A stretch of 41,859 nt of DNA from a virus. Shown piece after piece: positions 30,030-41,174 of the stretch; positions within the stretch are counted from its first letter, which is position 1; each line of letters starts with the position of its first letter. The translations under genes were made by a program, and so were the position numbers. The notes beneath the pieces were generated by a model. It ran no database searches, was not told the DNA's origin, and worked only from the letters and a program-made list of their open reading frames with translations. Location: the IMG/VR virus record IMGVR_UViG_3300021964_000156, positions 1-41,859 of that record, one strand, 5' to 3'.

Positions 30030-32114
30030 TTAAATCTCCACCCATGTATTTGATTGTTTATCATATGTAAAGTTATTATTCATAAGATCTTTCTTTAGTG
30101 CAAGTAACTGAGAATCAACATCTGCTTGTTCATTATATTTTTTATTTAAATCATTTGTCACAAAGTCCGGAAGTTCCTTACCGTATTTTTGCTTTGTTGT
30201 TTTTTCAATATTTTTAATATTTGAGTCTAATCTTTCAGATCTTCTCAACAACTTAGTATATTCTTCTGAAGCTGCTTTTAACTGCTCTTCAGTAGGTTCT
30301 GATTTTCCAGCAGGAGGAGTAGTTTCTACAGGCTGAGGCACCGTCTTTGGTACTAACGGTGGCTCTTCTGGCAAATTAACTCGAGAAGGTTTAACAACTT
30401 CCACTGGCTTCTGTGTATTCACTTCTTCTGGCGCAAGGAGTTTAGTTGTTACTGTATTTGTCTTTTTATATTTGCTGGATATATATGTCTCTACATCAAA
30501 TCCTGGACCCGTAGGTAAATCATCATTATAAAAAGTTTGAGCTCCAACAATCGAACCACCCGGAATAGCATTATAGAATGCTGTAATGAATGCATCAAAA
30601 GCTTGCCACTGATTAGGTGTAATAGAGTCTGAAGTAAGTTTAGCTGCAGGATCATCGTTAGGTCCATTAAAACCAGCAATGAATCCTATCTTCAATCCAT
30701 TTTCTTCTTTTATGTTTGCAGACTTTGGAACAAAATCATTGAGAGAAAGAGGCCGGCCTCTCTGAATAACACCATCTTTACGAATAACATAGTGCCATTC
30801 AATTTTACCAAACGTAGGATCATTTGCAACTAACCTTGAAAATGCTCGAGCGCCAAGTCCGTTAATTTGTCTATAAGTATGAAACTCATTTAATTGATAT
30901 GAATCCCAGTCACGATTCGAATAAGTCGTAGACCAATATACTATAGATGTTGTCAAAGGTCTTTTGCAATTTCTAATTTCAGATTCAAGTTCTTCAAATC
31001 CTCCGACTTCTGTAAATTTATAACTGGCTGGAAGAGGGAATGTAAAGTCCGAAGCACCGGCACTTAAATTTAGTGGAGGCTCTGAGACCTGAACACTTGG
31101 TGGTAAAGGATTAGTTTCTCTCAGATTACTTCTAATATTAGTAGATGCATCTGGCAAAATAATACTTGGCGGAGCTACTGCATTATCTGGTAATACAAAA
31201 TCTTTTGGCAGACTAGGCATTTCTTGTCCAAAGGATTGCACCTGAGGAATAGATAAACTCTTTCCAAGAACTGCACCTAATAAATTACCAAAGTCTAGGC
31301 CGAGTGAACCAAATCCTATTTTATTTGTTACTGCATCAACAGCTTTAAATGGATTATTCAGAAGATTCATTGTTCTAGTGGCAATTTTTTCAGAAGTATT
31401 TGCTACATCAACCGAAACATTTTCTTCTACTGCAACCGAAACTTCATCAGGATATGGTGATACATTTTGTATTGCAACTTTAGTTTGTCTTTTTGTAGCT
31501 CCAACCACACTTGTCAATGCTGCTTCAATTCCTTTTGGATTTCCTGTTACAATCGTTGCATTAAGAAATCCTCCACTCGCAGTTCGACCAGTAAGAGTTG
31601 TGATATCCCCTTTATCAGAAGATGATATAGATTTTGTAACAGTTACACCCGGAACACCATCAACCATAATTGAAACAACTGTTTCATCTGTTTCGGTCTG
31701 AGTTTCTTTGACAGAAGCTGATAGGGAAGTAAATCCACCTTTTGATGTACCAACATCGACGCCGAGTGTAGTTCCTTCGACAGATGCTCTTTTTTTCTTA
31801 GCAGTCGTAGCTTGTGTTTTAAGTGCGGTGTTTGAATTTTTAATGAGAAAATTTTTCAAATCACCATTGAACACATCATTAGTAAAAGCAATATAATTAT
31901 TCACTGCTTCTGGATCTTGAGCAATATCATATTCATAATTCACAGTAATATTTGCATATACTTTATCTAAAGTAATAGTCTTTCCAGATAAAGTATATCT
32001 TTCTGTCGAAGAGAAAAACTGTGCGCCTTTCTTCTTTACATTGACAGATTCGATTTTTGTTGGCTCGAATTCAAGCGTAATTACATTTGTATTTGAAGCT
32101 TTCTGTATTGTCAT
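30030..32114 (-). CDS. Baseplate/spike protein with amidase-like (PGRP/Amidase_2) domain, third zinc ligand apparently lost
   Basis: 694 aa. Residues ~385-540 look like an N-acetylmuramoyl-L-alanine amidase: YQLNEFHTYRQINGLG (H412), KIEWHYVIRKDGVIQRGRPL (H441 in the usual yHfvI-DG-I-GRP strand), and TGPGFDVETYI near the end. The usual GHxD segment reads GAQTFY (A525 in place of His) and there is no Cys before PGFD, so the zinc site seems incomplete. Flanking parts are long: a beta-rich N-terminus (~1-230) with a Pro-rich linker, and a charged helical C-terminus (SKSEPTEEQLKAASEEYTKLL). Starts by TAATG overlap with the gp5-lysozyme gene. It might bind peptidoglycan rather than cut it. Confidence 0.65.
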   Translation of the reverse strand: MTIQKASNTNVITLEFEPTKIESVNVKKKGAQFFSSTERYTLSGKTITLDKVYANITVNYEYDIAQDPEAVNNYIAFTNDVFNGDLKNFLIKNSNTALKTQATTAKKKRASVEGTTLGVDVGTSKGGFTSLSASVKETQTETDETVVSIMVDGVPGVTVTKSISSSDKGDITTLTGRTASGGFLNATIVTGNPKGIEAALTSVVGATKRQTKVAIQNVSPYPDEVSVAVEENVSVDVANTSEKIATRTMNLLNNPFKAVDAVTNKIGFGSLGLDFGNLLGAVLGKSLSIPQVQSFGQEMPSLPKDFVLPDNAVAPPSIILPDASTNIRSNLRETNPLPPSVQVSEPPLNLSAGASDFTFPLPASYKFTEVGGFEELESEIRNCKRPLTTSIVYWSTTYSNRDWDSYQLNEFHTYRQINGLGARAFSRLVANDPTFGKIEWHYVIRKDGVIQRGRPLSLNDFVPKSANIKEENGLKIGFIAGFNGPNDDPAAKLTSDSITPNQWQAFDAFITAFYNAIPGGSIVGAQTFYNDDLPTGPGFDVETYISSKYKKTNTVTTKLLAPEEVNTQKPVEVVKPSRVNLPEEPPLVPKTVPQPVETTPPAGKSEPTEEQLKAASEEYTKLLRRSERLDSNIKNIEKTTKQKYGKELPDFVTNDLNKKYNEQADVDSQLLALKKDLMNNNFTYDKQSNTWVEI

Positions 32115-38015: not shown

Positions 38016-38261
38016 ATGGGAAAGAAAAGACAAAGAGCGCATCAGGTATCAAAAGGTATTCACCATCAAAAACCAAGTAGATGGAAGAAGATGGCTCGCA
38101 AAGAATGGGTTGGGAGTGGTGCACAAGAGCATGCAAAATATAAAGCATGGCTTAGTGGTAAAAACGTAGTGCTTACTATTCCAAACCCGAATACAAATGA
38201 AACGAATAAGAAATTTATTCGTGTGAATGCAAATGAAGTATGGAGAAGGAAAACTGCATAA
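38016..38261 (+). CDS. Small basic protein upstream of gp26
   Basis: 81 aa, very basic at the start (MGKKRQRAHQVSKGIHHQK and SRWKKMARKEW), then AKYKAWLSGKNVVLTIPNPN and RVNANEVW. I recall small proteins of this kind near gp26 in marine T4-like phages. It starts 5 bases after the tail-tube-fold gene and overlaps gp26 by one base, so it belongs to the operon. No function known to me; charge suggests binding to nucleic acid or to an acidic tail protein. Confidence 0.6.
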   Translation: MGKKRQRAHQVSKGIHHQKPSRWKKMARKEWVGSGAQEHAKYKAWLSGKNVVLTIPNPNTNETNKKFIRVNANEVWRRKTA

Positions 38262-38980
38262 TGGCTTTACCAAAACTAAATGATGTACCAAAATATGAAG
38301 TGACAGTACCATCGACAGGAGAACAAACATTTTTTAGACCATATCTCGTGAGAGAAGAAAAAATTTTGTTAATTGCATCTGAATCAGGAGATGAAACAAG
38401 TATTTCGAAAGCTACAATTGATTTAATCAATGCATGTGTAGATACAGAATTAAAAAATAGTAATATCACAACATTCGATATTGAATACTTGTTTTGTAAG
38501 ATTAGAGCAAAATCTGTCGGTGAAACATCAAAGATGAAGATGATTTGTTTGTCTGAAGAATGTACACATGAATCTGAGATTGATATTCGATTAGATGATG
38601 TAGAATTAACGCATGAAGAAAAAGTTTCAAGTCTTATTCCTTTGACTGATTCTGTTACTTTAGAAATGAGGTATCCGTCTTTTAACGTGACATTAAACAA
38701 TAAGTATATTCAAGAAGCAGAAACAGAAGCTGAGATTATGTACCATACGGTCATTTCTTGTATTAAATCGATTATGACAGACGAAGAAAGAATTAGTGCT
38801 GATGATGAAAATTATGAAGATTTAGTAGAATTTGTCAATGGAATGACAACTGAACAATTTGAAAAAATGAAAGAGTTTATTTTAAACTCTCCAGAAATTC
38901 AACTTCCAGTTAATTGGACATGTGAAGCATGCGGACACGAAAATTCATTTGAACTAAAAGGATTAGCAGATTTTTTTTAG
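38261..38980 (+). CDS. 26: Baseplate hub assembly protein gp26 / tail assembly chaperone
   Basis: 239 aa from ATG 38261 (MALPKLNDVPKYEVTVPSTGEQTFFRPYLVREEK); an ATG at 38240 is in frame, but this start overlaps the upstream stop (TAATG) and matches family N-termini. T4 gp26 is 208 aa. Two Cys-rich loops (CLSEECTHESEI and CEACGHENSF) could bind zinc. The C-terminus ends GLADFF on a run of eight T followed by TAG; an SD-like AAAAGGA lies just upstream, and the -1 frame stays open for 60 codons to the tape measure start. This is the layout of tail assembly chaperone genes such as lambda G, immediately before the tape measure gene. Confidence 0.8.
   Translation: MALPKLNDVPKYEVTVPSTGEQTFFRPYLVREEKILLIASESGDETSISKATIDLINACVDTELKNSNITTFDIEYLFCKIRAKSVGETSKMKMICLSEECTHESEIDIRLDDVELTHEEKVSSLIPLTDSVTLEMRYPSFNVTLNNKYIQEAETEAEIMYHTVISCIKSIMTDEERISADDENYEDLVEFVNGMTTEQFEKMKEFILNSPEIQLPVNWTCEACGHENSFELKGLADFF
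38956..38980 (+). promoter_or_regulatory. Candidate programmed -1 ribosomal frameshift signal
   Basis: In the gp26 frame the sequence reads GCA GAT TTT TTT TAG. The heptamer T TTT TTT (38971-38977) lets both tRNAs slip back one base, and the next zero-frame codon is the stop UAG. AAAAGGA (38956-38962) lies 8 bases before the heptamer, like the SD-like stimulator of dnaX frameshifting. No obvious hairpin downstream. Confidence 0.6.
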
Positions 38981-39159
38981 TAGCCCTTTCTCATGAAACA
39001 TTGCAGAACCACTTTGAAATTAATTTTTTATTAATGGAAAATCACAATTATTCATTAGAAGATTTATATAATATGATACCGTGGGAAAGGGAAGTTTACG
39101 TTACATTATTGACTAATCATTTAGAAATGCAAGAGCAAAGAAGAAATGAGGCCCAGTAA
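38977..39159 (+). CDS. Frameshift extension of gp26 (tail assembly chaperone second part)
   Basis: This frame is too short to be listed as a gene by length alone. Read at -1 relative to gp26, it starts with TTA (38977), GTA, GCC and gives 60 residues: LVALSHETLQNHFEINFLL, then MENHNYSLEDLYNMIPWERE, then VYVTLLTNHLEMQEQRR, ending TAA at 39157-39159. The fused product would be 299 aa. PWEREVYVTLLTNHLEMQEQ resembles the second part of G-T type chaperones (P-x-x-ER-x...LL...HLE-x-x-E). An internal ATG at 39034 could give a 41-aa protein instead. The stop overlaps the tape measure start (TAATG). Coding with frameshift is inference. Confidence 0.6.
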   Translation, partial: LVALSHETLQNHFEINFLLMENHNYSLEDLYNMIPWEREVYVTLLTNHLEMQEQRRNEAQ

Positions 39160-41174
39160 TGGCTATCACTTTAAAAGAAGTAGCAGCTCTGATTAAAACC
39201 GGAGATGCCGTACAAATTCAAAATCAAGAAGATCAAGGAAAGACTCTTGATAGTATTGATAAAGGCATCAAAAAGTTTCTTGCCGTTCAAGAAAGAGATC
39301 GTCTAGATAAACTAGAAGATCGTAGAGAACAGCGCAAAGTAAGAACTATTGCTGGCGGTGGTGTGGCTGTTGCTGGTGGAGCTACTGCCGGTGGTGGTAG
39401 CGGTGGTCCTAGCACAATGTCTAGAATATTGACACAAGGTGTAGGAACAGCTTTAGCTCTTGGTGCATTAAAAGCTATACAACTCGGATTTAGAGGAATT
39501 AAAAATGCTTTAGCCACATCTTTTGGCACTCAACGCGGCGCTTTATTAGACATCAATAAGTCTCTTACCAGTGAATTAAAAGATTTTCAAAAAGTATTAA
39601 AAGATGATATTAAAGTTTTAAAGGCTCAACAAAAGGCATTAAATAGCGAGCTTAAAAAGGCTTTCTCGACTGAAGCAGACTTGCGTAGACAAATTCAAGC
39701 CGAAACTAGAACCTTCACTGAAGCCGGTCAACAGCGAATGAAAGCGCTGCAAGCACGACTAGATGATGCAATTGCAAGAAGACAAGTTTTGCAAACAGAT
39801 TTAGATTCTGCTCGAGCAGATCTTTCTTCTGCGAGGCTAGATCTTAAAGAAACAAGAGTGGCGTTATCAGAAGCTCGAGCAGCAGGAAAACTCGATGCTC
39901 AAGCACTACGAAATCAAGTAGCAGCATTAGAAAGAAGAGTTGCTGGATTGAGAGTAGGCCAAATTGATACAGAACAAGCATTTGCAGATAGAGCCTCTCG
40001 GTTAGCTGGACCTAATGCACAGCTAGGCACATTAAAAGTCGGCGATAATATTCAATATAAAACTACCACTGGAAAATTACTTGATGCTCAAGTGATGGAC
40101 ACTGCAGGCGGAAAAGTTCAATTACGAACTGGCACAAATGTATTTTCTGTTGATGCTCAGAACTTAGCAGATAGGACAAAACTTCCTGGTTATGGTGAAG
40201 CTCGTATTCCTATGACTATTCAAGATGCATTAAGACAGCAGTCTCTTAATCCATTTGCTCGAGGGACAAGATTTAATAATTTGTTAAGAGTGCCGGGAAT
40301 ATTTAGTCCAGAAGGCATTGTAGAAGCTGGTGCTGCGACTGGCAGCAGAATAACTGGTGCTTTAGGAATGTCTAGAACAGCCGGCACTTTAGCATCTGCT
40401 TCTAGATTATTAGCATCAGGACCAGCACTTTTTGCTTCACTTGTCACTATTCCTTCATCTATTGGTGCTGAATCTGGAAACACTGCTACACTCGCATACA
40501 ATATCGTAGAAGCATACAGAGACAATGATTTAACTAAATTTAAGCAAAGCAGAAATGCTCTAAAAGATTATCTTAAGAAATCATTTCCACAAATGGCGCC
40601 TACAATTTCTGCTTTTATTAATAGCTACTTATTTGGAGACATGTTATTGCAATTAGGGTTAAAAGATAACCTAGAAGCAGCTCAAGGATTAGTTGAACTT
40701 TTAACGATTTCTGAAGTTGATGTAGCTCGAATTATGAAACAGAATCTTGGTGGAGAAGAAGCATTTAAGAAGTTTAAAAATTTCAACGCTGCCTTAGCCG
40801 CGGCCAAACAAAATCCAGAAGTAATTGCAGCAGCTGAAATACAAGCAAAGACACAAACACCTTCATATATTTTACCCGGATCTAACGCAGCTCAAGGAAT
40901 ATATTCATCGGCTTTATCGCAACAGGCTCGAGCATTTGTTGCTTCTGAATTAGGGCTAAAACCCAATGAAGCTTTGCGCAATGGTTCTAAATTTGCTGCA
41001 ATTGAATCAGCGATTGCTACTTCTGCATATGGTCCTCGTACAGACAAGGTTCCTACAATCACAGGCCAGATTGGAGATAATGTAGTTTCTAATAATGCAT
41101 TTAATAATCTGCCTCAATCTGCGGTTGATCCATTTGACACTAATTCAATGCTTTATGGTACAGCAGCACCATAA
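39159..41174 (+). CDS. 29: Tail tape measure / baseplate hub protein gp29-like
   Basis: 671 aa; T4 gp29 is 590 aa. N-terminus MAITLKEVAALIKTGDAVQIQNQEDQGKTLDSIDKGIKKFL; a Gly-rich hydrophobic part (GGGVAVAGGATAGGG ... GTALALGALKAIQLG); a long coiled coil at residues ~125-265 (LKDDIKVLKAQQKALNSELKK, LQTDLDSARADLSSARLDLKETRVALSEARA); then alanine-rich and helical sections, including a hydrophobic stretch (TLASASRLLASGPALFASLVTIPSSIG). It lies right after the gp26/frameshift unit, which is where tape measure genes lie in tailed phages. It sets tail tube length and is inside the tube. Starts by TAATG overlap. Confidence 0.7.
   Translation: MAITLKEVAALIKTGDAVQIQNQEDQGKTLDSIDKGIKKFLAVQERDRLDKLEDRREQRKVRTIAGGGVAVAGGATAGGGSGGPSTMSRILTQGVGTALALGALKAIQLGFRGIKNALATSFGTQRGALLDINKSLTSELKDFQKVLKDDIKVLKAQQKALNSELKKAFSTEADLRRQIQAETRTFTEAGQQRMKALQARLDDAIARRQVLQTDLDSARADLSSARLDLKETRVALSEARAAGKLDAQALRNQVAALERRVAGLRVGQIDTEQAFADRASRLAGPNAQLGTLKVGDNIQYKTTTGKLLDAQVMDTAGGKVQLRTGTNVFSVDAQNLADRTKLPGYGEARIPMTIQDALRQQSLNPFARGTRFNNLLRVPGIFSPEGIVEAGAATGSRITGALGMSRTAGTLASASRLLASGPALFASLVTIPSSIGAESGNTATLAYNIVEAYRDNDLTKFKQSRNALKDYLKKSFPQMAPTISAFINSYLFGDMLLQLGLKDNLEAAQGLVELLTISEVDVARIMKQNLGGEEAFKKFKNFNAALAAAKQNPEVIAAAEIQAKTQTPSYILPGSNAAQGIYSSALSQQARAFVASELGLKPNEALRNGSKFAAIESAIATSAYGPRTDKVPTITGQIGDNVVSNNAFNNLPQSAVDPFDTNSMLYGTAAP

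Follow-up and report, generated by a model that had tools for sequence, protein, structure and literature searches.

Organization of the gp26 locus

The window analyzed here is a virus record of 41,859 bases from IMG/VR and represents a genome fragment of an uncultivated virus. Its gp26 gene is followed by an open stretch in the −1 frame and by a gene for a 671-aa protein (Table 1). The 3′ end of gp26 reads GCA GAT TTT TTT TAG, so that eight consecutive T are found at 38971–38978. After a slip of one base backwards, the first codon would be TTA (38977–38979), and translation in the −1 frame would continue as LVALSHETL...RRNEAQ up to a TAA (39157–39159) that overlaps the ATG of the next gene (39159–39161). 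The predicted gp26 fusion is 299 aa long; a product starting at the internal ATG at 39034 would have 41 aa. An earlier sequence-only reading of the locus had placed the end of gp26, the heptamer, the AAAAGGA element, the −1 frame, the length of the fusion and the start at 39034 correctly. The motif P-x-x-ER that it ascribed to the −1 frame was misread and is P-x-E-R (PWER). Runs of seven T were depleted in the window, with 13 found and 36 expected from shuffled sequences.

Table 1. Positions of the features around the end of gp26 in the window, and of relatives' loci that lack the heptamer
Feature	Position	Strand	Description
gp26, short form (TAC-N candidate)	38261..38980	+	239 aa; stop TAG at 38978-38980
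SD-like AAAAGGA, candidate stimulator (16S rRNA pairing)	38956..38962	+	8 nt upstream of the slippery heptamer
Slippery heptamer T TTT TTT	38971..38977	+	in phase with gp26 (Phe-Phe); U UUU UUN class
−1 frame ORF, long-form C-terminal domain (TAC-C candidate)	38977..39159	+	60 codons plus TAA
TAATG junction	39157..39161	+	TAA of the −1 ORF and ATG of the next gene share one base; read from the sequence
671-aa protein, candidate tape measure protein	39159..41174	+	assigned by position and size
Heptamer-less loci	L008:3780-3965; L099:3060-3261; L100:3280-3456; L237-L254 around the gp26 stop		

Two further genes of the window were noted. A basic ORF of 81 aa (38016–38258) separates gp26 from the tail tube gene; it matched phrog_23239, a family of unknown function (E = 8 × 10−7), and is missing from the same place in C48C1. 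A 694-aa protein with an amidase domain (30033–32114, minus strand) adjoins baseplate hub/lysozyme genes and is probably a tail-associated lysin.

Identity of gp26 and the −1 domain

The gp26 protein matched the curated profile PF12322 (T4_baseplate, gp26/gp51) with E = 7 × 10−56 and 189.8 bits (cut-off 24.5), as well as phrog_150 (baseplate hub, E = 2 × 10−59). A profile search with only the 60 residues of the −1 frame, as proposed in the sequence-only reading, led to gp51: the residues matched positions 59–116 of phrog_634, “baseplate hub assembly catalyst” (E = 1 × 10−21). A second, separate match was to the C-terminal end of phrog_150. AlphaFold models were confident (pLDDT 90–91, with 90 for gp26). 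In the model of the long form, the terminal helix of gp26 continues and is followed by three more helices.

Public records treat the −1 stretch in different ways. It is annotated as a short gp51 with an internal start in C48C1 and S-RSM4 and as gp51 right after gp26 in S-PM2, and it is unannotated in S-CAM1. Cyanophage gp51 has been described as having only about 20% of the length of other gp51 proteins (PMC3037559). The frameshift reading explains this shortness, as the ORF annotated there would cover no more than the part that follows gp26 in the shifted frame.

When the gp26 model was compared with known structures, the HK97 tail assembly chaperone 2ob9 was matched with a Foldseek probability of 0.87, an E-value of 0.59 and a target TM-score of 0.43–0.50, which gives only a hint of a kinship in fold. 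A fold search of the PDB with the long-form (gp51) model found no tail chaperone. Homology of gp26 to P2 gpE and Mu gp41 was also considered and set aside, as hhalign gave no match to these proteins with the thin profiles at hand.

Conservation of the slippery site and the −1 frame

A comparison of gp26 junctions from related phages, likewise suggested by the sequence-only reading, comprised 93 slippery-type loci: the window, 80 IMG/VR loci selected on gp26 similarity and not on the junction, and 12 named phages (C48C1, S-CAM1, KVP40, ACP17, S-RSM4, Ah1, vB_VmeM-32, S13, Mendera, Cr30, Melnitz-3, and S-PM2). An in-phase T TTT TTN was present in all 93 loci and lay 0, 1 or 2 codons upstream of the gp26 stop. 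Its last base was T or C in 43 loci each, A in six and G in one. Without exception, the codon ahead of TTT TTN had T as its last base, and TTT encoded the first Phe. Given gp26 codon usage and taking loci as independent, the chance of these two regularities is 10^−18.9 and 10^−12.7, respectively, values which overstate the significance because the loci are related. Protein identity to the window was only 33–46% for the 38 loci compared with it.

The −1 frame was open at all 93 loci and encoded a homologous ORF with the same domain, 54–66 aa in length (one being cut by a contig end). Among relatives, dN/dS was 0.11 between the slip point and a conserved Met (codons 4–18). The −1 frame is therefore conserved as coding sequence ahead of this Met, and translation must come in from upstream.

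Elements flanking the slippery site

Upstream of the heptamer, SD-like matches of 4 nt or more were found at 82 of the 93 loci. Their spacing peaked at 10 nt, seen at 41 of these 82 loci, and at 8 nt (17 loci). Matches of at least 5 nt were found in 45% of the loci compared with 27% in synonymous shuffles; the mean match length was not much above that of the shuffles. In the L-E-G motif, Glu was encoded by GAG in 38 of 48 cases (38:10), as against 28% elsewhere in gp26 (p = 3 × 10−13), and the SD bias therefore acts at the RNA level. The SD-like element proposed in the sequence-only reading is thus enriched about 10 nt upstream among relatives, beyond what the amino acids require.

Downstream of the site, the RNA was more folded than shuffled sequences (mean z of −1.8, with 46% of loci below −2), compared with 0.0 for an upstream control. 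Clear hairpins were found in the S-PM2, S-CAM1, and S-RSM4 types. No downstream hairpin was predicted in the window (z about 0 to 0.3). The idea that stop-adjacent sites dispense with hairpins and rely on the stop instead was tried and dropped, since no difference was seen (p = 0.51).

Relation to T4 gp26 and gp51

T4-type phages have a gp26 of about 208 aa without a slippery run and a separate gp51 of about 250 aa, both of which match PF12322. The frameshift fusion and T4-type gp51 aligned collinearly over their whole lengths, with the slip point inside the alignment (hhalign E = 3 × 10−24). The −1 domain on its own aligned with the C-terminus of gp51 (E = 3 × 10−13), and hhalign found no alignment of it anywhere in T4 gp26. 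Whole records contained one PF12322 gene in 12 of 12 frameshift genomes and two in five of five T4-type genomes; the window, being a fragment, shows one gp26 locus and no T4-type pair of PF12322 genes. Because of these one-versus-two gene counts and the end-to-end alignment of the fusion with gp51, gp26 and the fusion look, from their sequences, like a tail assembly chaperone made in a short and a long form, the situation known from lambda G/GT.

One gp26 and one gp51 were found in each of 46 T4-type records (phage HP3 and 45 others), one gp51 being broken. The two genes are divergent, except for a tandem overlapping pair in an RB43-like phage. In this phage, Klebsiella phage phi1_146010 (L097:2501–3794), gp51 and gp26 lie in tandem on one strand with an overlap of 14 bases; a gp29-family tape measure was not detected in its genome. 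The broken gp51 (L140) consists of two ORFs of about 120 and 123 aa split by a frame change, which may reflect a sequencing error or a real defect. In a gene tree, the frameshift, gp26 and gp51 groups were separate, with RB43-like gp26 on a long branch. The tree did not place its root and was therefore rejected as a guide to polarity, i.e. to whether frameshifting or duplication was the ancestral arrangement.

Junctions without the heptamer

Relatives without the slippery run exist; the sequence-only reading had named such relatives as grounds against a frameshift, provided that they keep a separately started ORF with its own ribosome site. In Ackermannviridae (L008, L100, and L237–L254) and Vibrio phage K448 (L099), the −1 domain is kept, and no T TTT TTN (U UUU UUN in the mRNA) is present. 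The junctions read ATT TTC ATT TAA or CTT TTC AAG TAA, and the stretch ATT TTC ATT TAA TTTTTGAAATTGATTTA hardly varies at these loci. A TAATG is present in Dickeya-type (DP23-type) phages and in K448; Kutterviruses have no TAATG and no start for 11 codons. These phages do not refute frameshifting in the lineage of the window, because they form a separate lineage.

Possibly, one protein family reaches its long form by at least three routes, although we hold this view only tentatively: (i) slippage at U UUU UUN in the window, cyanophages, KVP40, and others; (ii) two genes in T4 and its kin; and (iii) a heptamer-less route in Ackermannviridae. The last would be either an undescribed shift at AUU UUC AUU UAA or reinitiation at TAATG without a fusion, and, if real, would be new.

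The downstream 671-aa gene

The sequence-only reading took the next gene to encode the tape measure protein. Its position and size fit, and we regard it as a tape measure candidate on these grounds; the assignment by homology failed, since neither a match of the 671-aa protein to phrog_1283, the gp29 family, nor an hhalign similarity to T4 gp29 was found. Profile searches gave weak matches of coiled-coil type and no convincing match to any tape measure profile. A gp29-family match better than E = 0.0025 was found in none of the 11 frameshift genomes checked, and in four of five T4-type genomes. Most relatives have a gene of 490 to more than 1000 aa at the same place; between most clades these genes displayed no hhalign similarity. 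The first 50 residues of the 671-aa protein weakly resemble those of C48C1-type and L035-type loci. In Acidovorax phage ACP17 (L006:3762–4515), the slippery site and the −1 domain are kept and the next gene encodes only about 200 aa; adjacency to a gene of tape measure size is therefore not universal.

Proposed mechanism and alternative explanations

Judged from the sequences, gp26 and its −1 frameshift fusion are very probably the short and long tail assembly chaperone forms of a T4-superfamily phage. The view of gp26 as G-like and of the 299-aa fusion as GT-like, put forward in the sequence-only reading, gains support from the conservation of the site, the homology of the −1 domain and the alignment with gp51. 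Slippage during infection, its rate as outlined here and a chaperone role are what we infer. Most ribosomes would terminate at the TAG at 38978, yielding the 239-aa form. A minority would pause at the adjacent stop while both of their Phe-tRNAs are on T TTT TTT, with pairing of AAAAGGA to 16S rRNA perhaps adding to the pause; these ribosomes would shift back by a single base and translate a further 60 codons, which gives the 299-aa form. If the parallel with lambda G/GT holds, both forms would use their shared part to cover the tape measure protein, and the domain present only in the long form would bring in subunits of the tail tube or hub. Both forms would be released before tail completion. 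Weighing against this explanation are the missing downstream hairpin in the window, the lack of sequence similarity to P2 gpE and Mu gp41, the PDB search with the long-form model that yielded no tail chaperone, and the negative homology searches with the 671-aa protein.

Among the alternatives, the one that survives best concerns the role of the two proteins, not the frameshift, and overlaps with the explanation above. The short and long forms could serve assembly of the hub (gp5-gp27-gp29) specifically, rather than acting as chaperones of the tape measure in the manner of lambda. Studies of T4 assign gp26 and gp51 to the assembly of the hub and describe them as chaperones of that process rather than specifically of the tape measure; gp51 was listed as essential and of unknown function in a review of 2010 (PMC3004832). 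The gene that follows in Ackermannviridae is a gp5-like hub gene and not a tape measure. We nevertheless consider an exclusive hub role unlikely, as the short/long logic fits G/GT and gp26 has its weak match to the HK97 chaperone fold. Hub and tape measure roles may also be one, because the T4 tape measure gp29 is itself a hub component (PMC3004832).

The other alternatives dispense with ribosomal slippage. The −1 domain could be a separate small gene, i.e. gp51 as in cyanophage annotation, expressed from an internal start such as the ATG at 39034 and never fused to gp26. Short gp51 ORFs are indeed annotated in S-RSM4, C48C1, and S-PM2; at 60 of the 93 loci, some ATG, GTG or TTG follows an SD-like stretch of 4 nt or longer, and TAATG starts are present in KVP40, DP23, and K448. 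The candidate starts are scattered, however, many of them beyond codon 30, and their use would remove the conserved N-terminal half of the domain. Moreover, a separate gene accounts neither for the strong purifying selection on the −1 frame ahead of the conserved Met nor for the invariant in-phase T TTT TTN and the natural fusion represented by T4 gp51. We therefore regard this explanation as very improbable.

Marginally less probable still is transcriptional slippage on the T run, by which a mixed pool of mRNAs would provide the fusion without any slip of the ribosome. The eight consecutive T of the window are long enough to allow slippage of the polymerase, but half of the relatives have only six (T TTT TTC/A/G) and yet have lost neither the codon phase nor the T that closes the preceding codon, nor the SD-like element. 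A slip of the polymerase requires neither codon phase nor an SD, and the hairpins 3′ of the site in many relatives also argue against it. That a T gained or lost by sequencing or assembly error split one long gene is conceivable for an uncultivated IMG/VR record with an error-prone homopolymer, but has a negligible chance given that 92 other loci, including the isolates KVP40, S-PM2, and S-RSM4, share the arrangement, always with the stop 0–2 codons on.

Comparison with known systems

In the frameshift signal of Escherichia coli dnaX, the heptamer has an SD-like element some 10 nt before it and a hairpin after it. The relatives studied here resemble it in the presence and spacing of the SD-like element and, in many of them, in the hairpin. 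The window differs from dnaX in its run of T instead of A and in lacking a hairpin.

The record of phage P2 annotates a −1 site in GGT TTT TTG (E/E′). Its heptamer is of the U UUU UUN class, as at the present locus, and stands at the end of a small gene that immediately precedes the tape measure gene, a place which the locus would share if the 671-aa candidate is the tape measure; P2 E and gp26 have no detectable sequence similarity. Lambda G/GT, together with P2 E/E′ the nearest functional parallel, is another pair of short and frameshift-extended tail assembly proteins (PMC5009743), likened to gp26 and its fusion by arrangement and not by sequence. A 2016 review described the G-T frameshift as widely conserved “except T4” (PMC5009743). 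T4 gp26 is homologous to the short form and T4 gp51 aligns with the whole frameshift fusion; T4 has two genes, usually divergent, without a slippery run or a frameshift, whereas the type represented by the window has one gene.

The sequence-only reading knew of no such frameshift in T4-like phages, but a report exists. Tail assembly chaperones of T4-like phages, designated TAC-N/TAC-NC, are the subject of Vladimirov, Gautam, and Davidson (Virology 2022;566:9–15). PMC10885494 cites this study on T4-like phages that have a short gene and a long, fused one, and PMC12846349 cites it on −1 signals of the poly-T type within the TAC-N genes of T4-like phages. To judge by these citations, the frameshift cannot count as unreported in T4-like phages; the discovery is not new, and the window adds a member. 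The abstract of the 2022 study reportedly names T4 genes 26 and 51. In the papers accessible to us, we found no earlier report of the codon bias at the SD, of the tandem pair in the RB43-like phage or of the Ackermannviridae exception, which that study may nevertheless cover. Our wide sample provides independent support for the view that T4 gp26 and gp51 correspond to two lengths, short and long, of a single chaperone, both of which would be made by frameshifting in many relatives. In many cyanophage and vibriophage records, gp51 is truncated or missing and should become a joined annotation as a gp26 fusion. As far as the title of the 2022 study and the papers citing it tell, its systems involve the same kind of protein, made with poly-T −1 sites in some phages and from separate short and long genes in others, and the window would be one more, uncultivated member.
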